From Desulfamplus magnetovallimortis (GTDB lineage: Bacteria > Desulfobacterota > Desulfobacteria > Desulfobacterales > Desulfobacteraceae): a stretch of 64,000 bases of DNA. The stretch is taken from the NCBI RefSeq assembly GCF_900170035.1, contig NZ_LT828543.1, positions 255,438 through 319,437 on the forward strand, read 5' to 3'. Within the stretch, counting starts at the first letter, position 1, and every line of letters starts with the position of its first letter. The notes below the pieces were generated by a model. That model searched no databases. It was given only the letters and a program-made list of their open reading frames with translations, and had not been told where the DNA came from. Positions 13,787 through 25,569 of the stretch are shown in pieces. The position numbers and the translations under genes were made by a program.

Positions 13787-15301
13787 ATTAAACCTATAAT
13801 ACAATCTATTCGATTTAAAATTTTTTTGGTGAGTCTATTGCCAATATTTGGTCTGATCGCAGCAGCTTTTCTCAATCATCAATATCTAAATATTCTGGGA
13901 AATAGTGCAGAACAAATTCTATCAAAAAATTATAAAAGTATCCGTGCTGCACAGGATATGAGAAAGTCTTTTGATGACTCCCGAACTCTTTTACTGGATC
14001 CACTTTCCGCGGGAAAACCTTTGAAGATCATCTCCGGCCAGATCATTGAAGATATTGCTTCAAATTTAATGGTTTGTGAAATGAACATTACAGAAAAAGG
14101 GGAGCTGGAATTAATTGATAGACTACATCAACTTTTTGATAAATACAAAATATTGAGAGAGGAACAAAGTGGTTCTGGTCAGGTTTGGGATAACCGCTTC
14201 TTGTCCATAACCACTGAGGTGATTAATAACATTGATGATCTGGTTGTATTGAATGAAAAAGCGATGGAGAGAGCCGAACACCAAACCCGAATCCTTGCAG
14301 ATCAGGCTCAGGCCAATGCCGCCTTTTTATTTGGCGTGGTCATTGCAGCGATGATTGGTCTCAATTATTTTTTTTCTTATCGAATCGCCAGACCCATTAT
14401 GGTTTTGGCTCACCAGCTTTCAAAAACCAGAGAGGGAAGTGGAATCTATCCCAAGATATCCTTGAAATCCAATGATGAAATAGGATTTCTTGCCCGTTCC
14501 TTCAATCAGCTCTTTAACAGGCTGGAACAGTATGATAATAACAGGGATTACATAATCTCTCAAGAAAAGGAGAAAGTCCGCCGTAGTGAGGAGGCAAAAG
14601 GAAAATTCATTGCAGATATTTCACATCAGCTCAAAACACCTATGACATCATTAAGCATGAGTCTTGGGCTGCTTAAAAGCAGAGGAGAAAAACTGGGCAT
14701 TGAAAAAAGAGATAAATTGCTGCTCACTGCATATAATGATTGTAAACGATTGAATGTATTGATTAACGAGCTGGTTGATATTTCAAGGCTTGAAATAATG
14801 TCCATGCCTCGCCCTAAAGAGACCCTTGATATTAAAATGGTGGTTGATGAATCATTATCCCCGTTGATTGATCAAGCTGAAAAAAAAGGGGTTCAGATAA
14901 AAAAGGAGATACCGGAAAAAATACCCCGGCTTACCATAGATTCGTTTCGATTTCCCTGGGTAATTACCAATTTGGTTGGTAATGCCCTGAGATATACATC
15001 TACCGGCGGACTTATAACTTTAAAGATTTTTCAAAAAGGCTCAAGGGTATATTTTCAGTGCAAAGATACTGGAGACGGCATAAAACCTGAAGTGCTGCCT
15101 CGGATTTTTGACCGGTTTACTCAATTCTCTGAACGGGGAAAGAGTGGGACGATCGGATTGGGTCTGGCAATTGTCAAGGATATCATTGATCAGCACGGTG
15201 GAGATATAACAGTGCAAAGTACACCTGGCAAAGGGACTGAATTTACTTTCTGGGTACCGGGTATAAAGGAGTCAAAAGATGAAGAAAGCATTGATCATTG
15301 A
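13787..15301 (+). CDS. KinB-like membrane sensor histidine kinase, probably with an ATT start
   Basis: 504 residues if translation starts at ATT 13787. GGAGGAGA (13773-13780) is ideally spaced for it, whereas TTG 13826 has no ribosome site and would remove the basic N-terminus before the first membrane helix. Order: TM1 (LLPIFGLIAAAF), a helical periplasmic sensor of about 145 residues with AEQILSKNYKSIRAAQDM, TM2 (about 180-205), HAMP, HisKA (ADISHQLKTPMTSL, His near 281), and HATPase_c (NLVGNALRY, DTGDGIKP, TIGLGLAI). The sensor resembles that of the kinase at 17009. It overlaps the next regulator by 23 bp, forming a KinB/AlgB-like pair. The signal is probably osmotic or envelope stress, by context only. 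Confidence 0.88.
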   Translation: MKPIIQSIRFKIFLVSLLPIFGLIAAAFLNHQYLNILGNSAEQILSKNYKSIRAAQDMRKSFDDSRTLLLDPLSAGKPLKIISGQIIEDIASNLMVCEMNITEKGELELIDRLHQLFDKYKILREEQSGSGQVWDNRFLSITTEVINNIDDLVVLNEKAMERAEHQTRILADQAQANAAFLFGVVIAAMIGLNYFFSYRIARPIMVLAHQLSKTREGSGIYPKISLKSNDEIGFLARSFNQLFNRLEQYDNNRDYIISQEKEKVRRSEEAKGKFIADISHQLKTPMTSLSMSLGLLKSRGEKLGIEKRDKLLLTAYNDCKRLNVLINELVDISRLEIMSMPRPKETLDIKMVVDESLSPLIDQAEKKGVQIKKEIPEKIPRLTIDSFRFPWVITNLVGNALRYTSTGGLITLKIFQKGSRVYFQCKDTGDGIKPEVLPRIFDRFTQFSERGKSGTIGLGLAIVKDIIDQHGGDITVQSTPGKGTEFTFWVPGIKESKDEESIDH

Positions 15302-16598
15302 TGATGACCCCAATATTTTGACAACACTTGAGATCTATCTTGAAGATAAGGATTTTGAGGTGCTGACGGCAGATACAGCACAGGCAGGCCTTGAACTGGT
15401 GCGACAAACAGAACCTGACATAGTATTACTGGATATGAAGCTGCCGGACAAAAGTGGCCTGGAGGTTCTAAGCGAGATAGTCACCAGAACTGTTACCACC
15501 CAGGTATTGATGATCACCGCTTACGCAACTGTGGAGACAGCAGTTAAAGCCGTCAAAATGGGTGCTTTTGATTATCTTCCCAAACCATTTGTTCCGGGAC
15601 AACTTGATCTGGTGCTGGAAAAGCTCCATCGATTCAATCGGATGGAAAAAGAGATTGCTCTGCTGAAGGGGATCTTTTCAGAAGGTGGATTTGTAACCCG
15701 CAGTAAAAAATTGCTCAAGATTTTAAACACATCCCGGCGAGTGGCCGACTCCATCGCCACCATTTTGATCGGAGGCGAAAGCGGAACCGGTAAAAGTTTG
15801 CTGGCAAGGCTGATCCATGACTGGAGTCCCCGATCTTCCGGCCCTTTTGTTATGGTGGATTGTGCCGGTTTTCAGGAAAATCTTCTTGAAAGTGACCTTT
15901 TTGGACATACAAAAGGGGCGTTTACCGGTGCGGTAAAAGATAAAATCGGCAAACTTGATCTGGCCGACAAAGGCACTGCCTTTTTAGATGAGATTTCAGA
16001 GGTTCCCAAATCCATACAGGGGAAGCTGCTTCGCTTCATTCAAGACAAGGAATTTGAAACAATTGGTGACCCCACTCCCAAAACAGTGGATGTCCGCATT
16101 ATTGCGGCAACCAACAGAGATCTTGAATCCATGGTCAAAAACCAGAGCTTTAGAAATGATCTCTACTTCCGTCTGAATGTCATCGAGATCTTTTTACCTC
16201 CCCTCAGAGAAAGACCTGAAGATATTGGCCTGCTGGCTGAAATGCACCTGACCCGATCGGCCAAGCTCAATGGAAAGTCCGTTGAAGGGATCGGCGAAAA
16301 GACAATGAAAATGCTACAGTCGTATCCATGGCCCGGCAATGTCAGGGAGTTGATCAATACCATCGAGAGAGCGGTCATTATCTCTGAGGGGAAGGTTTTG
16401 GATCTTCATGATTTACCTTCCAGTATCCTCAACTACACCCCGGATCATGGCATCGGCATCAAAAGTCTTGGGGAGATTGAAAAAGAGCATATCCAAAAAG
16501 CCATCCTCCACACATCCTCCCTTGAAGAGGCTGCCGGAATCCTTGGAATTGATCCGGCCACATTGTGGCGAAAACGGAAAAAATATCAACTTGATTAA
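15279..16598 (+). CDS. Sigma-54-dependent response regulator, NtrC/AlgB type
   Basis: 439 residues. The receiver domain (about 3-118) has the acidic pair IIDDDP and phospho-Asp in VLLDMKLPDKSG. The AAA+ domain carries Walker A GESGTGKS (near 167), the sigma-54 contact loop GAFTGA (near 213) and the arginine region RNDLYFRLNV. A Fis-type helix-turn-helix closes the protein (EEAAGILGIDPATLWRKRKK). It should activate sigma-54 promoters when phosphorylated by the overlapping kinase. Two sigma-54 promoters with matching upstream inverted repeats lie at 16934 and 22476, each in front of a K+ uptake operon, so these are the likely targets. Confidence 0.92.
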   Translation: MKKALIIDDDPNILTTLEIYLEDKDFEVLTADTAQAGLELVRQTEPDIVLLDMKLPDKSGLEVLSEIVTRTVTTQVLMITAYATVETAVKAVKMGAFDYLPKPFVPGQLDLVLEKLHRFNRMEKEIALLKGIFSEGGFVTRSKKLLKILNTSRRVADSIATILIGGESGTGKSLLARLIHDWSPRSSGPFVMVDCAGFQENLLESDLFGHTKGAFTGAVKDKIGKLDLADKGTAFLDEISEVPKSIQGKLLRFIQDKEFETIGDPTPKTVDVRIIAATNRDLESMVKNQSFRNDLYFRLNVIEIFLPPLRERPEDIGLLAEMHLTRSAKLNGKSVEGIGEKTMKMLQSYPWPGNVRELINTIERAVIISEGKVLDLHDLPSSILNYTPDHGIGIKSLGEIEKEHIQKAILHTSSLEEAAGILGIDPATLWRKRKKYQLD

Positions 16599-16610
16599 AC
16601 CATCATGACA

Positions 16611-16638
16611 GTAGAGACAAGGCATGCCTTGTCTCTAC
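16611..16638. repeat. 28-bp perfect palindrome, copy 1
   Basis: GTAGAGACAAGGCA followed by its exact inverse, 12 bp after the regulator stop codon. An identical copy is at 25542-25569. It could form a 14-bp stem in RNA and act as a 3'-end hairpin, or it may be a REP-like dispersed palindrome. Confidence 0.85.
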
Positions 16639-16805
16639 GACCTTTCTACTCTACGGTGCTACAGTGCCTTCCCCGATTATGAAAATAATGAGGGGTATTT
16701 TCACGGTAACAGAATAATTGCCACCTTCCTTAATCCCTGCCCAACTGCCGCAGATCTTGGAAAATCTCTTCCTGCGTTGGTATCTTCGTTTGTCCAGGTT
16801 ATGAA

Positions 16806-16834
16806 ATTGCAAAATGCAATGCCCCCATATTGCA
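16806..16834 (+). promoter_or_regulatory. Candidate activator site (UAS) for the NtrC-type regulator
   Basis: ATTGCA-AAA-TGCAAT (16806-16820) overlaps TGCAAT-N8-ATTGCA (16815-16834). Spaced palindromes about 100-130 bp upstream of a sigma-54 promoter are typical enhancer sites of NtrC-family activators. The same arrangement occurs at 22351-22378. Confidence 0.65.
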
Positions 16835-16933
16835 GAATTCAAGACAACCACACATCTCCAATACATAACTTTTTATTGTAAAAATTCTCTATCTATTTGT
16901 ATTTAAAAGAAATGTTAATAGATATCTGCTGTA

Positions 16934-16949
16934 TGGTATTGTTTTTGCT
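16934..16949 (+). promoter_or_regulatory. Sigma-54 (-24/-12) promoter of the first K+ operon
   Basis: TGGTATTGTTTTTGCT: GG at 16935-16936 and GC at 16947-16948, separated by exactly 10 bases. It lies about 60 bp upstream of the kinase start. Confidence 0.75.
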
Positions 16950-17008
16950 TTATACCAGGATGCTCAAACGTGTTGTAAATGCTTTGGTGAACTTTAAGGA
17001 TGATTAAT

Positions 17009-18841
17009 ATGACATTGAAAAAGAAAATTCTGATCGGATACGGGGTAGCCTTTCTCCTCATGGGGCTTGTGGTTGCATGGTCGGTCACCAATCTGGTTTC
17101 CCTTGGCAAAGCGTCAGGGGCAATTCTGAGTGAAAACTACAGAAGCATACTTGCCGCCGAAAACATGGTGGACGCACTGGAACGTCAGGATAGTGGAATC
17201 CTTCTGATCTATTTGGGGGATGAGGAAAAAGGAATCTCACAATTTCGTGAAAATGAAGCTATTTTTTTGGAGTGGCTGGTCAGGGCCAAGGATAACATCA
17301 CCATAAAAGGCGAAGCAGATCTGGTTAAGGATATTGAATTGGATTATGCGGCTTATCGGCAATATTTTTCCAGGTGGAGAGATTTTCAGAATAACGAGAA
17401 GCAGCTCTCCTTATCCGAATCATACCATGAATCAGTTTATCCCCTTTTCACAAAGGTGAGGGAGGAATGCATCGACCTGCGTCATCTCAATGAAGAAACC
17501 ATGTACGCTGCCAGCGTGAAAGCCGGAATTGCAGCCAGACGGGCTATTTGGTCAACCTCGCTTGTGGCTGGCTCCGCTTTGATTGTAGCTCTTATTTTTA
17601 GCCTATTTCTCGCGGAAAGGCTTGTACGGCCAATCAGGCGTTTCATGGAAGCATCAAGAAATATTTCAAAAGGTGATTACACTGTTCAGGTGCCGGTGGA
17701 AACAGGCGACGAACTGGGAAAATTGGCTCAAGAGTTCAATGAAATGGCTTCAAAGCTCCTCCGGTATCATGAAATGAATATCGAGCAGATCATCTCCGAA
17801 AAAAACAAGGGTGAAGCTATACTCTCAAGCATTGAAGACGGTTTGGTGGTGTTTGATATCAATCTAAAGGTAACCGGCATCAACCCTGCCGCACGAGAAA
17901 TACTTGGGGTTACGTTGACGGAAACCACCTCATTACGATGTTCGGATATCATACTCGATTCAAAAGTCTGTGATTTGATCAGTGAAACCGTTGAGACCAC
18001 AATCCCCCCGACTCTTCCGGACGAACAACGAATCGTTGTACTGTCATTGGGTAAAAGAACCAGACATTACCTCTTCTCGGTTACCGCTATCCGCGGGATG
18101 GATCACAATCTTTCAGGAATCGTGCTTCTGCTCCGGGATGTCACCCGCTTGAAGGAGGTAGAACAACTCAAAAGTGATTTTGTTATGGCTGCATCCCACG
18201 AGTTGCGGACTCCTCTGACCAGCTTGGGAATGAGTGTCGATCTTTTGCTGGAGCACGCTTCCGGAACACTTGCGGCAAAAGATCAGGAGCTCCTCAAAGC
18301 GGCCCATGAGGAGGTTCATAGAATGAAGGCACTTGTCAATGATTTGCTGGATCTTTCCAAAATTGAGGCCGGCCGGATCGAGATGGAATATGAAATCATT
18401 CAAGTCATCACCCTTTTCGATCATGTTCGAACGGTTTTTAGACATCAGCTTGAAATGAGACCGGTTGAACTGAGCGTTGAGATTCCAGATGATCTGCCGA
18501 GGGTTCGGGCGGATGCGAACAAAATCACATGGGTACTGACGAATCTGGTTTCCAACGCGCTTCGATATGTGGGCAGCGATGGGCACATTCAGCTCAAGGC
18601 CCATAGAATCGGCCCCAATGTCCACCTGTTTGTACAGGACAACGGTCCGGGAATCCCTCAAGAGTATCAGTTGAAAATATTTCAAAAATTTGTGCAGGTT
18701 AAAGGTCAGGAAACCGGAGGCACGGGCCTGGGGCTCGCCATCTGCAAAGAAATTGTACGTGCCCATGGCGGTACTATCTGGGTGGAGTCGTCTCAAGGAA
18801 ACGGCAGCACCTTTACCTTTACCCTGCCGGTAAACGCTTAG
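17009..18841 (+). CDS. PAS-containing KinB-like sensor histidine kinase
   Basis: 610 residues from ATG 17009, eight bases after AAGGA; an ATG at 17000 overlaps that ribosome site and is unlikely. Order: TM1 (about 8-28), a four-helix-type periplasmic sensor with GAILSENYRSILAAENMVDA, TM2 (about 178-200), HAMP, PAS (about 265-370), HisKA (AASHELRTPLTSLG, His near 396), HATPase_c (NLVSNALRY, DNGPGIPQ, GGTGLGLAI). The sensor is clearly related to that of the kinase at 13787. It is the first gene of an operon with a REC-TPR protein, two TrkA proteins and TrkH, so it probably tunes K+ transport. A sigma-54 promoter lies upstream. Confidence 0.9.
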   Translation: MTLKKKILIGYGVAFLLMGLVVAWSVTNLVSLGKASGAILSENYRSILAAENMVDALERQDSGILLIYLGDEEKGISQFRENEAIFLEWLVRAKDNITIKGEADLVKDIELDYAAYRQYFSRWRDFQNNEKQLSLSESYHESVYPLFTKVREECIDLRHLNEETMYAASVKAGIAARRAIWSTSLVAGSALIVALIFSLFLAERLVRPIRRFMEASRNISKGDYTVQVPVETGDELGKLAQEFNEMASKLLRYHEMNIEQIISEKNKGEAILSSIEDGLVVFDINLKVTGINPAAREILGVTLTETTSLRCSDIILDSKVCDLISETVETTIPPTLPDEQRIVVLSLGKRTRHYLFSVTAIRGMDHNLSGIVLLLRDVTRLKEVEQLKSDFVMAASHELRTPLTSLGMSVDLLLEHASGTLAAKDQELLKAAHEEVHRMKALVNDLLDLSKIEAGRIEMEYEIIQVITLFDHVRTVFRHQLEMRPVELSVEIPDDLPRVRADANKITWVLTNLVSNALRYVGSDGHIQLKAHRIGPNVHLFVQDNGPGIPQEYQLKIFQKFVQVKGQETGGTGLGLAICKEIVRAHGGTIWVESSQGNGSTFTFTLPVNA

Positions 18842-18852
18842 GAGAGAAATCA

Positions 18853-19656
18853 ATGGAATCAATAGAAAAAACGAAAAAAACACAGATACTGATCGTTGAT
18901 GATGAAAAAAACATCAGGCTGACCATGTCTCAATCATTGGAGCCCCTTGAAATTCCACTCCAGACGGCCGTGAACGGCGAAGATGCCCTTCTGAAGTTAA
19001 GGGATTTTCAATTTGGGTTGGTGTTTCTGGACTTGAAAATGCCGGGGATCGACGGGATGGAGGTGCTGCGCCGGATCAAGGAGGATTGGCCGAAAATCAG
19101 GGTGGTAATCATTACTGCTCATGGGAGTATCGAATCGGCTGTGGAGGCTATGAAACTGGGTGCAGTGGATTTTATTCAAAAACCTTTCAGCCCGGTTGAG
19201 ATCCGTGATCTGGCGAGCCTGGTTATAGAACGTGAAGCGTTAGACGAAGAAAGCGTGATTGATTACCCCTCTCTTATTGATCTAACAAAACGCCACATTT
19301 CAGACCGCGAATTTGCCACGGCACGTGAAACAGTCAGAAAAGCCATAGCCGCCGACCCTGCACATCCGGAAAGCTACAATCTTCTCGGGGCACTTCTTGA
19401 AATCAAAGGAGACTGGTTAGAAGCCCAGAAGTTCTATCGAGCGGCATTGGATATAGATCCAACATTCAAAGCTGCCTGGGCGAATCTTGAAAGGACAACG
19501 TCCTGGAACAAATTCGGCAAGATTGATCTGGGGCCGGACAAGCAGGAGAAGAAAGAGGAAAAAACGCGCGAAACGGGCACAAGTGAGAGGTACAAGAGAT
19601 GGATACAAGTGAAGGACACAAGTCAGGGGCACAAGTGGGGGGATGATGAAAAATAG
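18853..19656 (+). CDS. Response regulator: receiver plus TPR, no DNA-binding domain
   Basis: 267 residues. The receiver domain (about 10-125) has IVDDEKN, phospho-Asp in GLVFLDLKMPGIDG, and the T...K region (VVIITAHGSIES, DFIQKPFSP). TPR-like helices follow (about 145-225; AIAADPAHPESYNLLGALLE and ALDIDPTFKAAWANLE), then a charged Lys/Glu tail. With no output DNA-binding domain it probably acts through protein contacts, perhaps with the Trk proteins encoded just after it. Its stop overlaps the next start by 14 bp, indicating coupled translation. Confidence 0.85.
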   Translation: MESIEKTKKTQILIVDDEKNIRLTMSQSLEPLEIPLQTAVNGEDALLKLRDFQFGLVFLDLKMPGIDGMEVLRRIKEDWPKIRVVIITAHGSIESAVEAMKLGAVDFIQKPFSPVEIRDLASLVIEREALDEESVIDYPSLIDLTKRHISDREFATARETVRKAIAADPAHPESYNLLGALLEIKGDWLEAQKFYRAALDIDPTFKAAWANLERTTSWNKFGKIDLGPDKQEKKEEKTRETGTSERYKRWIQVKDTSQGHKWGDDEK

Positions 19657-20086
19657 CCGATACATTGTGGTCGTGGGTTGCGGACGGCTCGGGTCCCATC
19701 TTGCGAACTGCCTCAGCCGTGATGGAAACTCGGTTGTGGTGATTGACCGGGTTGAAATGACATTAAACGATTTGTCACCGGATTTCAGCGGATTTAGAAT
19801 CAATGGTGACGCTACCCACATGGCGGTGCTCAAAGAAGCCAAGCTTAAAAATGCCGATGTGTTGATTGCCACGACCCATGAAGACAACGTCAATTTGATG
19901 GTGGCTCAGGTCGCCAAAAAAATCTTCCACGTCCCTCATGTGCTGGCCCGGGTTTTTGATCCTAAGCGGGAGGAGGTCTATGCCCAACTGGGAATTGACA
20001 CCATCTGCCCGACCTCCGTGGCTGCCGGCATGTTTTTACAGGCTGTCGCCAACGGTGGAAAAGGTCAAAACGGAACCTCACCATGA
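19643..20086 (+). CDS. TrkA-type K+ uptake regulatory subunit, N-terminal RCK domain only
   Basis: 147 residues. The nucleotide-binding Rossmann fold is clear: IVVVGCGRLGSHLANCLSRD, the acidic end of strand 2 (VVVID), GDATHMAVLKEAKLKNADV and ATTHEDNVNLMVA. It ends after about one TrkA-N domain and lacks the C-terminal TrkA-C half. It may pair with the full-length TrkA encoded 35 bp downstream. TrkA/RCK proteins bind NAD(H) or ATP on the cytoplasmic face and gate TrkH-type channels. Its stop TGA overlaps an ATG (20083) that opens a 13-codon mini-frame leading to the next gene. Confidence 0.85.
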   Translation: MMKNSRYIVVVGCGRLGSHLANCLSRDGNSVVVIDRVEMTLNDLSPDFSGFRINGDATHMAVLKEAKLKNADVLIATTHEDNVNLMVAQVAKKIFHVPHVLARVFDPKREEVYAQLGIDTICPTSVAAGMFLQAVANGGKGQNGTSP

Positions 20087-20135
20087 AAGTAATCATCAAC
20101 GATCAAAACGGAGCTTCACCATGAAAGTAATCATC
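20063..20135 (+). repeat. 38-bp tandem duplication spanning a trkA start, with a 13-codon mini-ORF
   Basis: TCAAAACGGA plus CACCATGAAAGTAATCATC occurs twice, 38 bp apart (ATGs at 20083 and 20121). The first copy opens MKVIINDQNGASP, whose stop TGA (20122-20124) overlaps the second ATG, the true start of the next trkA. The first ATG itself overlaps the stop of the previous gene, so the three frames are chained by ATGA overlaps. Confidence 0.9.
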
Positions 20136-20783
20136 GTCGGAGGGGGGGAAACCCTGTTTTTTCTTTGTCGCAACTTCACAGCCAGGGGGTATCAGGTTGT
20201 CATTATCAATCGTGAAAAGGATGAATGTATTCAGTTGAGCCGTCAGCTATCCGCAATGGTCGTGTGCGGAGACGGAAGTGACGCAGGGATTCTCAAGGAA
20301 GCCGGAGCAATTGGAGCCGACGCTATATTGGCGATTACCCCAAATGATCAGGATAATCTTGTTGTCTGTCAGTTGGCTTCTCTTAAATTTGGCGTACCAA
20401 AAGCCATAGCTCTGGCCAATGATCCCGACAACACCGAGATATTTGAAAAACTCGGAGTTTCGGCATTCTCGACAACCCAAATCGTTGGCAGCCTGATTGA
20501 GCAACGGGCATCTCTGGAACAGATTCTCAATTTGTTGCCTGTGGGAGAAGGCAGGGTAAATGTGACCGAAATTGTTTTGGGAGCTGACTCTCCTGTGGTT
20601 GGCAAATTGCTCAAGGAGATTAATCTCCCTGAAAACGCACTGATTGCGGTCATTATTCGTGACAATAACCCCATGATCCCACGGGGAGAAAATGACCTTC
20701 AGGAGGGAGACAGAGTGTTGTTAATTAGTTTACCGGAAAATCATGGACCTGTTCTAAAATCGCTAACCGGAGAACAAATGTAA
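20121..20783 (+). CDS. trkA: TrkA-type K+ uptake regulatory subunit, full length
   Basis: 220 residues from ATG 20121. TrkA-N covers about 1-125 (MKVIIVGGGETLFFLCRNF, VVCGDGSDAGILKEAGA, AITPNDQDNLVVCQLA). TrkA-C covers about 135-215 (VNVTEIVLGADSPVVGKLL, PMIPRGENDLQEGDRVLLIS). The glycine motif GGGETLF departs from the usual GxGxxG, so nucleotide affinity could differ from its partner. It gates the TrkH channel encoded 18 bp downstream. The region before ATG 20121 belongs to the preceding gene and a duplicated junction, so longer in-frame starts are rejected. Confidence 0.9.
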   Translation: MKVIIVGGGETLFFLCRNFTARGYQVVIINREKDECIQLSRQLSAMVVCGDGSDAGILKEAGAIGADAILAITPNDQDNLVVCQLASLKFGVPKAIALANDPDNTEIFEKLGVSAFSTTQIVGSLIEQRASLEQILNLLPVGEGRVNVTEIVLGADSPVVGKLLKEINLPENALIAVIIRDNNPMIPRGENDLQEGDRVLLISLPENHGPVLKSLTGEQM

Positions 20784-20801
20784 TATAGAGGAAATAAAAT
20801 T

Positions 20802-22286
20802 TTGCGGGAAAAAGAATATCTCAAAAAACGCTATGCCGCCATATTATCTTCAACAGGTATGATTCTTCTCATCTCCAGCATGGTGATGCTGACTCCGCTT
20901 CTTGTTCTGATACAGAATCCGGAAGAGTCAAAAAATGCTTTATCGTTCTGCCTTCCCTCACTATGTCTCGCCCTTTTGGGAGGAATTCTGTGGCGATTGT
21001 TCAAGTCAGAGTCAAATACAACCCTGTCAGTACAGGAGGGTGGTATTATCGTCCTTGTAAGCTGGCTTACTGTCATTCTGTTTTCTGCCTGGCCTTTTAT
21101 TTCTGTTATGGGGCTTCCATTTTCCAGGGCAATTTTCGAGTCTGTGAGCGGTTGGACAACTGCTGGATTGTCGGTTGTGGATGTCACTGCCGCAGGCCAG
21201 ATGATTTTGTTGTGGCGCAGCATTATCCAACTGGCTGGTGGAGCAGGCCTGGCCATCATAATGATGTCGGCCGTTGTCGGCCCCACAGGAGTTGGCATCT
21301 CCAGTGCCGAGGGCCGAAGCGATCAGCTTGTGCCACATGTCAGGCAGTCGGCCCGTCTTGTCTTGATTATTTATTCAGCCTATGCCATGGCAGGTTTTCT
21401 GGCCTACTTTGCGGCGGGGATGTCGCCCTTTGATGCGGTTAACCATGCTTTCGCAGCTGTTTCCACAGGTGGGTTTTCAACAAAGCCTGACAGTATCGGG
21501 TATTGGAACTCAATCACTGTCGAAGCGGTTACCCTGCCACTCATGCTTCTGGGCAACCTGAGCTTTGTCACTGCCTGGTTCGTTTGGCGTGGCAAATTTT
21601 ATTTTGTTTTTAAAAATGGCGAAGTGCGCATGCAGTCTCTCTTGATGCCATTATCCGCCGCACTTCTATTTATCTTTACGTGCCAAAGCATCTACCCTCA
21701 CATTGGTAAAGCAATGCGTGTTGCACTCTTTGAAACCATTTCGGCATTGACAACAACGGGGTTTTCAACGGTAAGCTATGGCAACTGGAACTCTTTTGGA
21801 GTGTTCCTTCTGATCAGCCTTATGTTGATTGGTGGCGGCACATGCTCCACGGCCGGCGGGATCAAGCAGTTCCGTATTTATATCCTGTTTAAATTGCTGT
21901 TTCTGGATATCAAACGCCACCTTATCCCAAGAACCGCTGTCACGGAGCTTCCGATATGGGAAGGAAACAGGCGTGTTTTTTTGGATGATGCTAAGTTTAG
22001 GCAAATAGCGGTATTTGTTTTCCTTTATATAGCCTCCTATGGATTGGGTGTCATGATTCTGTGTTCCTATGGCTACAATCTGAGCGATTCCCTTTTTGAA
22101 TTTGCTTCCGCACTGGGTACTGTTGGACTTTCCGTGGGGGTAACTTCAGCCGGAATGCCTGACGGTGCTCTCTGGGCGGAAATCTTTGCAATGTTTCTTG
22201 GAAGACTCGAATTTATGGTCATCATAATAAGTTTCCTCAAAATTTATAAAGATATCACACCATCTGGGGGATTCTCCCTTGGATGA
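20802..22286 (+). CDS. trkH: TrkH-family potassium uptake membrane protein
   Basis: 494 residues from TTG 20802, with GAGGAA eight bases upstream. Hydrophobic throughout, with the four K+ pore repeats: SVSGWTTAGLSVVD, AAVSTGGFSTKPDS, ISALTTTGFSTVSYG and SALGTVGLSVGVTS. Size and loop pattern match TrkH/TrkG rather than the shorter KtrB encoded further on. It imports K+ across the inner membrane under control of the TrkA proteins upstream. Last gene of the first sigma-54-controlled operon; the next promoter block begins right after its stop. Confidence 0.93.
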   Translation: MREKEYLKKRYAAILSSTGMILLISSMVMLTPLLVLIQNPEESKNALSFCLPSLCLALLGGILWRLFKSESNTTLSVQEGGIIVLVSWLTVILFSAWPFISVMGLPFSRAIFESVSGWTTAGLSVVDVTAAGQMILLWRSIIQLAGGAGLAIIMMSAVVGPTGVGISSAEGRSDQLVPHVRQSARLVLIIYSAYAMAGFLAYFAAGMSPFDAVNHAFAAVSTGGFSTKPDSIGYWNSITVEAVTLPLMLLGNLSFVTAWFVWRGKFYFVFKNGEVRMQSLLMPLSAALLFIFTCQSIYPHIGKAMRVALFETISALTTTGFSTVSYGNWNSFGVFLLISLMLIGGGTCSTAGGIKQFRIYILFKLLFLDIKRHLIPRTAVTELPIWEGNRRVFLDDAKFRQIAVFVFLYIASYGLGVMILCSYGYNLSDSLFEFASALGTVGLSVGVTSAGMPDGALWAEIFAMFLGRLEFMVIIISFLKIYKDITPSGGFSLG

Positions 22287-22298
22287 CCCCTTTTCTGT

Positions 22299-22378
22299 GC
22301 ATATTTTGATCACTTTGGAAAATGCAACTTCTGGGCATCTTTTGATCGCTTTGCAAAATGCAATGCCGCCATATTGCA
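22299..22378 (+). promoter_or_regulatory. Candidate activator sites (UAS), second K+ operon
   Basis: Two 36-bp tandem segments start at 22299 and 22335 (GCATNTTTTGATC...AAAATGCAA). They are followed by TTGCA-AAA-TGCAA (22351-22363) and TGCAAT-N8-ATTGCA (TGCAAT at 22359-22364, ATTGCA at 22373-22378). The last two match the sites at 16806-16834; the tandem half-sites are extra here. Confidence 0.65.
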
Positions 22379-22475
22379 GAATTCAAGACAACCACACATC
22401 TCCAATACATTACTTTTTATCAAAAACAGCTTATCTATTTGTATTTAATAGAGATATTAATAGATATGAGTTGTA

Positions 22476-22491
22476 TGGCATTCTCTTTGCT
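22476..22491 (+). promoter_or_regulatory. Sigma-54 (-24/-12) promoter of the second K+ operon
   Basis: TGGCATTCTCTTTGCT: GG at 22477-22478 and GC at 22489-22490, 10 bases apart. It is closer to the TGGCAC-N5-TTGC consensus than the copy at 16934 and lies about 70 bp upstream of the next start codon. Confidence 0.8.
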
Positions 22492-22561
22492 TCATATCCT
22501 GATCAACGGATGGGCATCAAAATTGCCTGCCACCACGAATTGGTTAAATGGAGAATACATT

Positions 22562-23140
22562 ATGCCAGGAAAACGACATATTCTAATCTGCTCTCTTTCA
22601 GAAAAACCGGAGAAAGCTATAAAGTCAGCATCCATAACATGGACAAACACTCCTCTGACCTGTTTTCAGCGGGCTGTAACAGAAAAATATACCCACATTG
22701 TTGTCATTCTTCCTGCGGAAAATTCAGATATTTATCACCATGCCATTGAACTTTGCAAGATAATCAAGGCTACACCTCTCACATCTTCTGTTTCTGTGGT
22801 GTTTTTTTTGGAGAAACCTCACAGAAAACTGCTTGATGCCCTTGCTGCCGCAGGAGCAGATGGGGTGGATATCCGCCCTGTGCCCTCTTTGGATCAACCT
22901 GATCAAATGGAGGAGAGGGTAAAAACTCTTTGTTCAGGCAATTCATTTTCTCCCGTACAAACTGTTTTAAAAAGCCTTTGTCCATATCTGTCCGATTTAA
23001 AGGATGACAAAGCTGAGTTTACGGTTTGTGGTGCCTATCGACATCGGATGTTTTTAGGGGGCGAACGATTGAAAAATCTATGTCATTCCAAAAATCATCG
23101 TTATTGCGAATTTTATCAAAACCCCAGGGATTTCAAATGA
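22562..23140 (+). CDS. Degenerate receiver-like protein with a four-cysteine C-terminal domain
   Basis: 192 residues from ATG 22562 (GGAGA at 22550). Longer in-frame starts lie inside the promoter block and are rejected. Residues 5-125 have receiver-like alternation (HILICSLS, HIVVILPAE, VSVVFFLEKPHRKLLDALAAAG) but lack the acidic pair and the phospho-Asp, so it is probably not phosphorylated. The tail carries spaced cysteines (SLCPYL, TVCGAY, NLCHSK, RYCEF), a C-xn-C-xn-C-x7-C arrangement resembling small metal or Fe-S domains common in deltaproteobacterial signalling proteins. Its stop overlaps the ktrB start (ATGA), so it is translationally coupled to K+ transport. Function not known. Confidence 0.7.
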   Translation: MPGKRHILICSLSEKPEKAIKSASITWTNTPLTCFQRAVTEKYTHIVVILPAENSDIYHHAIELCKIIKATPLTSSVSVVFFLEKPHRKLLDALAAAGADGVDIRPVPSLDQPDQMEERVKTLCSGNSFSPVQTVLKSLCPYLSDLKDDKAEFTVCGAYRHRMFLGGERLKNLCHSKNHRYCEFYQNPRDFK

Positions 23141-24498
23141 ATCTACGCCGCCGATTGCTGAAACTTCATCCAGCAGCTCTGGTTTTATCAAGTTTTATGG
23201 CAGCCATTTTTTTGGGAATGTTTCTGCTTAAATTACCCGTTTCAGTGAAAACAGGAATGTTATCATGGATGGATGCACTGTTCACATCCACTTCCGCTGT
23301 CTGTGTGACAGGATTGGTGGTGGTTGACACAGGAACTACCTACTCTCTTTTTGGCCAGATCGTGATTCTCTTTCTCATTCAAATCGGAGGTCTGGGTGTG
23401 ATGACACTCTCTGTGATTCTTTTTCGTGTGATCGGAAAAAGAATCTCTTTTCACCAGCTTATGGCGGTTCAAGATACATTTTTGCACACCCCACAGGAAG
23501 ATATATTCAAGTTGGTAAAACATATTTTTGTGATCACCTTTTTTATTGAACTTGCAGGAACTGTGCTTCTGACTATACATTGGTATGGAGAATTCTCTTT
23601 ATCAAAAGCTTTATATACAGCTCTTTTTCACTCAATTTCAGCATTTTGCAACGCCGGTTTTTCCCTTTTTCCAGACAGCCTCGTCACCTGGAACGGAACT
23701 CTTCTGCTGAACATGACCATATGCACTCTCATCGTTTGTGGAGGAATCGGGTTTTCGGTACTCTATGAGTTCAAGAACTGGATCAAATTGAGAAAAAAGA
23801 AAATATTCAGGTTTACTGTGCATCTGAAAACAGTCCTTTTGACAACCGCTATTCTCATACTGCTTGGTGCAGTGTCGTTCTATTTTCTTGAACAAAAAGG
23901 AGTACTTGCCGGAAAACCCTTAAATCAGAAGATTCTCATCTCTCTTTTCCAGTCGATCACCTGTCGAACTGCCGGTTTCAATACAGTTGATTTGAGCATA
24001 TTGAACGATGCGACGCTGGCCTTGATGATTTTTTTCATGTTCTTTGGGGCATCCCCAGGCTCTTGCGGTGGTGGCGTAAAAACCACGACACTCTCTTTAC
24101 TCATAGCCACAACAGTGGCCAGAATGAAACGAATGAAAAGGGTCAATATGTTTAAAAAAAGTATTCCCCAGGAAACTGTGGATCGATCCGCTACCCTGGT
24201 TTTAATGTCAGTGGCAGTTATCAGTATGGTTCTTTTTTTTATTCTTGTGGGAAATACAGCTCTTGCTGCTCCAGAGAAAGAAGCATTTCTTTCCTATTTG
24301 TTTGAGGTGGTTTCGGCCTTTGGGACAGTGGGCTTGTCACTTGGGATCACACCGGATTTAACCTCATGGGGAAAATTTTGGATAATCTTGACCATGATCA
24401 TCGGCAGGGTCGGTATTCTGACTTTTTCATACATAATTGTAGGAACTCATCCCGACAATGGATTTGAACGTGCCGAAGAGAACATGATGATAGGTTAA
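23137..24498 (+). CDS. ktrB: KtrB/TrkH-family K+ transport membrane subunit
   Basis: 453 residues from ATG 23137 (AGGGA six bases upstream; overlaps the previous stop). Four pore repeats: TSTSAVCVTGLVVVD, SISAFCNAGFSLFPDS, QSITCRTAGFNTVDLS and VSAFGTVGLSLGITPD. Length, the short N-terminus (MNLRRRLLKLHPAA) and the single following RCK subunit fit Ktr-type transporters, usually Na+-linked K+ uptake, rather than Trk. Downstream partner KtrA begins 10 bp after the stop. The operon is predicted to be sigma-54 dependent. Confidence 0.92.
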   Translation: MNLRRRLLKLHPAALVLSSFMAAIFLGMFLLKLPVSVKTGMLSWMDALFTSTSAVCVTGLVVVDTGTTYSLFGQIVILFLIQIGGLGVMTLSVILFRVIGKRISFHQLMAVQDTFLHTPQEDIFKLVKHIFVITFFIELAGTVLLTIHWYGEFSLSKALYTALFHSISAFCNAGFSLFPDSLVTWNGTLLLNMTICTLIVCGGIGFSVLYEFKNWIKLRKKKIFRFTVHLKTVLLTTAILILLGAVSFYFLEQKGVLAGKPLNQKILISLFQSITCRTAGFNTVDLSILNDATLALMIFFMFFGASPGSCGGGVKTTTLSLLIATTVARMKRMKRVNMFKKSIPQETVDRSATLVLMSVAVISMVLFFILVGNTALAAPEKEAFLSYLFEVVSAFGTVGLSLGITPDLTSWGKFWIILTMIIGRVGILTFSYIIVGTHPDNGFERAEENMMIG

Positions 24499-24508
24499 CA
24501 GGAGTCTT

Positions 24509-25168
24509 ATGAAAAAATTTGCAGTGATTGGATTAGGTAATTTCGGATTTTATGCGGCCAAAGCGTTATATGAAGATGGCAACGAAGTCATTGCCATTGA
24601 TATTTCCAAAGCCCGTATTCAGGCTATTGATTCCTTCTGTACGGAAGCAATCTTGCTCGAAGCCACAGATAAAGAGCGTTTGAAGGCACTCGGAATTTCA
24701 TCAATGGATGGGGTTATTGTATCTACAGGTACCAAAATCAGTACCAGCATTATGATCTGTCTTCATTTGCATGAACTCGGGGTAAAAAATATCCTTGTCA
24801 AGGCTCTGGACGATGATCACGGTAAAATCCTTAAAAAGGTAGGAGCAACCCAGATCATCCACCCTGAAAGGGATGTTGCCTTACGAATTTCTCAAAAATT
24901 GTCCAGACCCAATATACTGGATTTCATTCCACTGTCGGAAGGGTTTGACCTCGTCCATATTGAACCTCCCAAAAGTTTTATAGGAAAGAACCTTAAGGAG
25001 CTTAACTTAAGAGCAAAGTACAATGTACATATAATCGCTATAAAAGAACAACTGCCTGAAAAATTTTTTTTGGTTCCCAATGCCAATTTTGTTATTAAAG
25101 AGAGTGATGTGCTTATGATTCTTGGGAAATCAGAGGATATCAAAAGAATAAAATTACTGAAAGGATAG
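24509..25168 (+). CDS. ktrA: KtrA-type K+ channel gating subunit (RCK)
   Basis: 219 residues. TrkA-N (about 1-130): KKFAVIGLGNFGFYAAKALY with a proper GxGxxG, then EVIAIDISKARIQAID, LEATDKERLKAL and VSTGTKISTSIMICL. TrkA-C (about 135-218): DLVHIEPPKSFIGKNLKELN ending DVLMILGKSEDIKRIKLL. It forms a cytoplasmic ring that binds ATP/ADP or NAD(H) and gates KtrB, encoded just upstream. Last gene of the island; a nested MITE follows. Confidence 0.92.
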   Translation: MKKFAVIGLGNFGFYAAKALYEDGNEVIAIDISKARIQAIDSFCTEAILLEATDKERLKALGISSMDGVIVSTGTKISTSIMICLHLHELGVKNILVKALDDDHGKILKKVGATQIIHPERDVALRISQKLSRPNILDFIPLSEGFDLVHIEPPKSFIGKNLKELNLRAKYNVHIIAIKEQLPEKFFLVPNANFVIKESDVLMILGKSEDIKRIKLLKG

Positions 25169-25481: not shown

Positions 25482-25541
25482 TAAGTGCCATTATTTTCTA
25501 TTGACTCCCAAGATAAGGCTATGATCTTAAAACATAATGCA

Positions 25542-25569
25542 GTAGAGACAAGGCATGCCTTGTCTCTAC
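25542..25569. repeat. 28-bp perfect palindrome, copy 2
   Basis: Identical to 16611-16638. It lies downstream of ktrA and downstream of the ZraP-like gene on the other strand, so it could serve as a 3' hairpin for either. Confidence 0.85.

Follow-up and report, generated by a model that had tools for sequence, protein, structure and literature searches.

At sigma54-dependent promoters in general, enhancer sites for activators of the NtrC family lie upstream of a -24/-12 element. Promoter propagation, or the transfer of noncoding DNA, which Matus-Garcia in 2012 and Oren in 2014 reportedly described, is said to place homologous promoter DNA before non-homologous genes. Control of K+ uptake by a sigma54-dependent response regulator is known from Desulfovibrio vulgaris, in which, according to the main texts of two papers, DVU3334 regulates the kdp operon (PMC3333781, PMC4641369); in neither main text does a word start with Trk, TTGCA or TGCAA. 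Among the matches listed in the literature on this system or on duplicated promoters, no description of such a Trk K+ regulon under a sigma54 activator was recognised.

The way in which acquired genes join an existing regulatory circuit is mostly deduced from completed networks. At the locus described here, which lies in a 64-kb stretch of DNA from Desulfamplus magnetovallimortis (the whole of which is called the window), a regulator, its putative site, and apparently imported and displaced genes are seen together, and among its relatives are loci without the five-gene cassette, without the second promoter, or with other inserts.

The repeated block and its surroundings

The features of the locus are the following, with proteins assigned by Pfam unless noted otherwise.

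13826-15301, + strand: HK0, sensor histidine kinase (HAMP, HisKA, HATPase); overlaps the activator gene
15279-16598, + strand: NtrC-family sigma54 activator (Response_reg, Sigma54_activat, AAA lid, HTH_8; GAFTGA loop)
16599-16711, no strand: dispersed repeat, palindromic, after the activator stop and before copy 1; outside the duplicated block
16807-16961, + strand: copy 1 of the predicted enhancer-promoter block (by alignment)
16807-16819, + strand: copy 1, site 1, TTGCAAAATGCAA
16830-16842, + strand: copy 1, site 2, TTGCAGAATTCAA, beginning 23 bp after site 1
16934-16949, + strand: copy 1, -24/-12 element, TGGTATTGTTTTTGCT
16961-22286, + strand: five-gene cassette, apparently of other ancestry (Pfam, nucleotide identity, trees)
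17009-18841 (reading frame from 17000), + strand: HK1, HAMP-PAS kinase, cassette gene 1
18853-19656, + strand: receiver-TPR protein, cassette gene 2
19643-20086, + strand: TrkA_N protein, cassette gene 3
20121-20783, + strand: TrkA (TrkA1), cassette gene 4
20802-22286, + strand: TrkH1, cassette gene 5
22304-22327, + strand: partial tandem copy of 22340-22363 (22/24 nt), read from the sequence
22351-22503, + strand: copy 2 of the block, with sites at 22351 and 22374 and the -24/-12 element TGGCATTCTCTTTGCT at 22476-22491
22562-23140, + strand: degR, 192 aa, first gene behind copy 2; no significant family match
23137-24498, + strand: TrkH2, Trk-family K+ uptake protein (also TIGR00933, above its cut-off)
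24509-25168, + strand: TrkA2 (TrkA_N, TrkA_C)

An earlier note on this DNA had claimed that a block of about 150 bp, limited on the left by ATTGCA-type sites and on the right by a GG-N10-GC promoter, is duplicated in front of two different K+ operons. Alignment of 16807-16961 with 22351-22503 bore this out, with 128 of 148 positions identical in the BLAST core (86%, two gap positions, E 7.7e-46), the same limits in both copies, and a Trk K+ operon, as judged by Pfam, behind each of them. Over 155 aligned columns the copies differ at 23. The local alignment score of 107 compares with a best score of 20 in 500 shuffles and of 38 among 2,982 random pairs of equal-size window pieces. The divergence is uneven, as two differences fall within the first 70 columns and 21 within the last 85 (Fisher p 8e-5); the left part is 97% identical and the right part much less so, a patchiness that fits partial gene conversion or unequal constraint.

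Two full copies of the block were found in the organism's own genome (a 6.68-Mb draft of 108 contigs, 97.3% complete). A third comparable copy was not found there, the next match being a 41-nt piece with an E value of 0.05, and the scan for further, promoterless copies, which the earlier note had named as the check for a dispersed repeat, detected none of the block. With two copies found, the block does not behave as a dispersed repeat or mobile promoter, and many copies were found only of the neighbouring segment 16599-16711, for which 84 matches are listed in the same genome, the query itself and both strands of the palindrome included. When 86 genomes of the family were searched at the DNA level, the block gave matches in eight, which outside its own genome were only pieces of less than 50 nt. 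The dispersed palindrome around GTAGAGACAAGGCATGCCTTGTCTCTAC occurs also at about 25533-25569. At 16599-16711 it stands between the activator stop and copy 1, whereas many relatives have their first site no more than 10 bp from the stop.

Within each copy, the inverted-repeat sites TTGCAN3TGCAA and TTGCAN3TTCAA are placed 23 bp apart and are followed by TGGYAY-N5-TTGCT, the distance from site 1 to the promoter being 121 bp in copy 1 and 119 bp in copy 2. Exactly two matches to TGGYAY-N5-TTGCW exist on both strands of the 64-kb window, and these are copies 1 and 2. A -24/-12 GG-N10-GC element together with paired upstream sites is present in both, and each copy is predicted to be a complete sigma54-type enhancer-promoter. 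Copy 2 is preceded by a further, degenerate site, TTGGAAAATGCAA, in the partial tandem copy at 22304-22327; copy 1 has no such third site.

The protein encoded directly upstream combines the receiver, the sigma54-interacting AAA+ domain with GAFTGA and the Fis-type HTH that characterize the NtrC family, and we infer from sequence that this activator (15279-16598) is the most likely regulator of both copies. Its helix region LGIDPATLWRKRKKY is nearly unchanged among the orthologues, and the best activator match has 71% identity. A scan of named genomes gave six hits with identities of 35-53%. At E 1e-150 the activator was not detected in the nine other genomes of the genus, several of which are incomplete. 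A relative of HK0 adjoins the activator in 25 of 35 fetched loci.

The genes behind the two copies are non-orthologous, as the earlier note had it: 118 of 410 residues are identical between TrkH1 and TrkH2 (29%) and 50 of 212 between TrkA1 and TrkA2 (24%), and the first genes and the gene order differ. A 38-nt direct repeat (89%; 20060-20097 and 20098-20135) runs from the end of the TrkA_N gene into the start of TrkA and includes a second ATGAAAGTAATCATC. The description of 22562-23140 as a degenerate receiver was not established. The degR product has no significant match in Pfam or NCBIfam, its hit to PleD among PDB profiles is sub-threshold (E 0.04), and none of 19 members of its family matched Response_reg at E 1; a single-sequence structure model had a mean pLDDT of 50, too poor for structure searching. 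The family occurs in 29 of the 291 genomes of the order sample. Eight residues are invariant in an alignment of 19 members (the window sequence and 18 of 35 distinct sequences, some of them partial), including four C-terminal cysteines (C140, C156, C174, C182), a pattern that suggests a bound metal or Fe-S cluster beside the K+ transporters. At locus L081 (G353:C18), a degR-like gene is situated about 3 kb upstream of the kinase-activator pair and not downstream.

Recurrence of the element in related loci

The surroundings of the activator were compared across 27 non-window loci in which its orthologue, or a relative with 43-45% identity, precedes K+ genes. At least one site and a -24/-12 element (score cut-off 12, set by the author) were found behind the activator in 26 of these, with the 23-bp site pair in 18 and a single recognised site in eight. 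Neither site nor promoter was detected at L107 alone, in which TrkH2-TrkA2 lie behind the activator. This locus (G307:C69) carries a kinase-activator piece at both contig ends, in opposite orientation and with equal scores, and is possibly an assembly artefact. At L077, L081 and L109, where the activator is present and these K+ genes are not adjacent, no such site was found in the 243-400 nt behind it. Among the 18 paired loci, the first site and the -24 element are 104-107 bp apart in 17 and 94 bp apart in L079. Most of the 43-45% activator relatives (LGIDQATLWRRRK) carry the first site at most 40 nt from the activator stop. In pairwise alignments of more than 100 columns, the two window copies are 85% alike and resemble the elements of relatives at 61-78%. 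The gene order in many relatives is kinase-activator-promoter-degR-TrkH2-TrkA2, and in others the five-gene cassette stands between promoter and degR.

A strict composite pattern matched 21 of 389 genomes, once in each of 20 and twice in the window's genome alone, with no match in a reversed control; it misses single-site elements, the first copy in G024 and both copies in G061. Paired sites alone, with one mismatch allowed, were detected in 40 of 291 and 12 of 86 genomes, and because such loose matches occur at many other places and a few also in the reversed control, the strict pattern alone is used as evidence. Among 14 chosen genomes, and again with one mismatch allowed, 11 have the paired sites at a single place, G000 and G013 have them at two, and G046 has none. 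A looser pattern of one site plus promoter was found in all 26 chosen genomes, several of which have multiple places (for example four in G013, three in G312, and two each in G061, G073, G270 and G157); the extra places looked at were the two of G061 and the cassette locus of G257. A third looser match in the window's own genome, C1:463514, was dropped; it overlaps the start of a reading frame on the opposite strand and lacks the site pair. A site in G013 (C1:3871807) lies between genes that by reading are antiporter-like and proC-like, and no clear -24/-12 element was seen there.

Ancestry of the cassette and origin of the two copies

Nucleotide similarity between the window and G061 consists of a single piece (16974-22243, 83%), and that to G073 extends from 16961 to 22254 (82%); both fall off at both ends. 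With G029, the similarity is about 68% in either flank and rises to 76-77% within the cassette. A tree of the cassette proteins HK1, TrkA_N, TrkA1 and TrkH1, without the receiver-TPR protein (15 of 24 records, fewer than half of the columns being filled for G237 and G031), grouped the window with G061, G073 and G237 with support of 99/98, and a grouping with G029, a pair named after the identities had been seen, was rejected (AU p 0.0076). The flank tree of TrkH2 and TrkA2 (21 of 24 records, with G237 again less than half filled) placed the window with G029, G024 and G013 (100/100), and G061, G073 and G237 in another part. G024 and G013 are absent from the cassette tree because both lack the cassette, a second TrkH2/TrkA2 pair in L091 was excluded, and the trees leave out other fetched loci, for instance the cassette in L195. 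The ancestry of the locus is thus mosaic, the two trees conflicting as is expected of horizontal acquisition, and the five-gene, 5.3-kb cassette appears to come from a lineage other than that of its flanks. Copy 1 ends (16961) 0-13 nt before the start of the cassette similarity and so matches its edge. Copy 2 begins 65 nt past the TrkH1 stop and 97-108 nt past the end of the similarity and is therefore not flush with that edge.

In the reading that we prefer, with a probability of roughly 0.7, an imported K+ cassette is flanked on either side by the resident control element, and a single activator drives both units. The repeated block would then be the full control element of a sigma54 K+ regulon, comprising two enhancer sites and a -24/-12 promoter. 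HK0 would relay a signal by phosphorylating the activator, which in this form would occupy the TTGCAN3T(G/T)CAA pair and, some 120 bp further downstream, open sigma54 RNA polymerase. Since the element occurs on both sides, the imported cassette would be read from copy 1 and the displaced degR-TrkH2-TrkA2 from copy 2, with the duplication presumably having arisen upon insertion or exchange of the cassette. To judge from position, degR-TrkH2-TrkA2 is likely the older target, as it lies directly behind the activator's promoter in many relatives, and what is new here is probably the five-gene cassette between two promoter copies, not the promoter of the degR operon. Of the regulon growth proposed in the earlier note, two operons under one activator are probable, and the arrival of a stray promoter before an unrelated operon probably did not take place.

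Comparable rearrangements were encountered in other genomes. In G024, a segment of 483 columns (89%) occurs twice in the re-oriented L175 (5686-6140 and 15113-15594), the two occurrences being separated by other genes that span about 9 kb; the segment contains the promoter and the start of a divergent gene that by reading is antiporter-like, and the first promoter copy is shorter by 23 bp, which is one site interval. In G061, a segment of 461 columns (86%) occurs in two copies about 11 kb apart; it covers the related activator's promoter and the beginning of the PAS kinase, and part of the activator gene (117 columns, 89%) is likewise repeated. The repeat ends in both genomes differ from those in the window, and they are thus taken as independent duplications. 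Comparison with G046 revealed that G033 has no cassette at this position, its promoter 1 running directly into the degR leader. These cases indicate that the locus gains and loses DNA at this promoter, and together with the promoter at the second position in G031 they mean that the window's arrangement, called rare in the earlier note, is not unique. At 10405-10779 of L092 (G013), cassette and degR are missing, and behind the promoter come 96 residues of the PAS kinase and then TrkH2-TrkA2.

Copy 2 may have come with the cassette, may have been copied later, or may be an older promoter homogenised by conversion. The last of these leads to an account that overlaps with the preferred one and is regarded as somewhat unlikely, in which each operon had an old promoter of its own and gene conversion made the two alike, with no recent duplication. 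It draws on 14 non-window gaps between TrkH1 and degR (two L090 gaps of more than 2000 nt having been skipped in the survey). One of them, in G031, holds a paired-site promoter with a distance of 116, closer to the window's values than the distances at the other paired-site loci are, so that copy 2 may predate the cassette exchange; the gap in G046 has a site without a promoter (best score 11.7), that in G357 a lone site, and the patchy identity of the window copies is what partial conversion would leave. However, 13 of the 14 gaps lack a paired-site promoter, and the G031 element, at 69-72%, is no closer to the window copies than those of other relatives. Recent copying of copy 2 from copy 1, with the cassette already present and its ancestry reflecting an exchange-prone locus, likewise overlaps with the preferred reading and is considered unlikely. 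It would agree with G029, among the nearest genomes by flanks, which has the cassette at the same place with one promoter only and no copy 2, and which implies that import and duplication may be separate events, but sits less well with the close match of copy 1 to the cassette edge and with the promoter copies of G024 and G061, which also flank inserted DNA.

Duplication of a whole operon, followed by divergence of the genes while selection held the promoters alike, would explain why TrkH and TrkA proteins are encoded in both operons. It was rejected as very improbable in view of the low TrkH and TrkA identities and the different first genes and gene order; moreover, across the order the two operons have separate sets of relatives, and the left spacer outside the sites matches between the copies (two differences in 44) and not with relatives. 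Still less credence is given to a dispersed or mobile repeat whose letters resemble a promoter by chance: one such repeat does lie directly upstream of copy 1, but the block itself is limited to two copies in the genome, and its sites and promoter, unlike the rest of it, are found again downstream of the same activator in further families of the order.

The preferred reading of a resident element on both sides of an imported cassette admits a bolder extension, which we hold to be doubtful: the promoter may serve as a landing pad, at which homologous recombination brings in cassettes and leaves a promoter on each side, so that new and displaced genes both come under the resident activator in a single step. 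If true, the locus would amount to an integrase-less, integron-like site that at least three lineages have reused (the window, G024, and G061 with its related activator).

Comparison with known systems

The locus resembles the general class of sigma54/NtrC systems in its -24/-12 element, its upstream inverted-repeat sites, and the adjacent activator with receiver, AAA+ domain and Fis-type HTH, but it differs in having Trk K+ uptake as its putative target and in carrying the element twice, around a cassette of apparently other ancestry. With promoter propagation it shares homologous promoter DNA before non-homologous genes; in contrast, the copies here are two in number, local, and tied to a cassette and to their own likely activator. 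As far as the main texts describe DVU3334, both systems place K+ uptake under an adjacent activator in a sigma54-dependent two-component arrangement, which for the window is predicted, whereas the target is Kdp in D. vulgaris and Trk here, and the likeness is one of description (PMC3333781, PMC4641369). What the locus outlines is probably a regulon for Trk K+ uptake, governed by a sigma54 activator through a highly specific double site.
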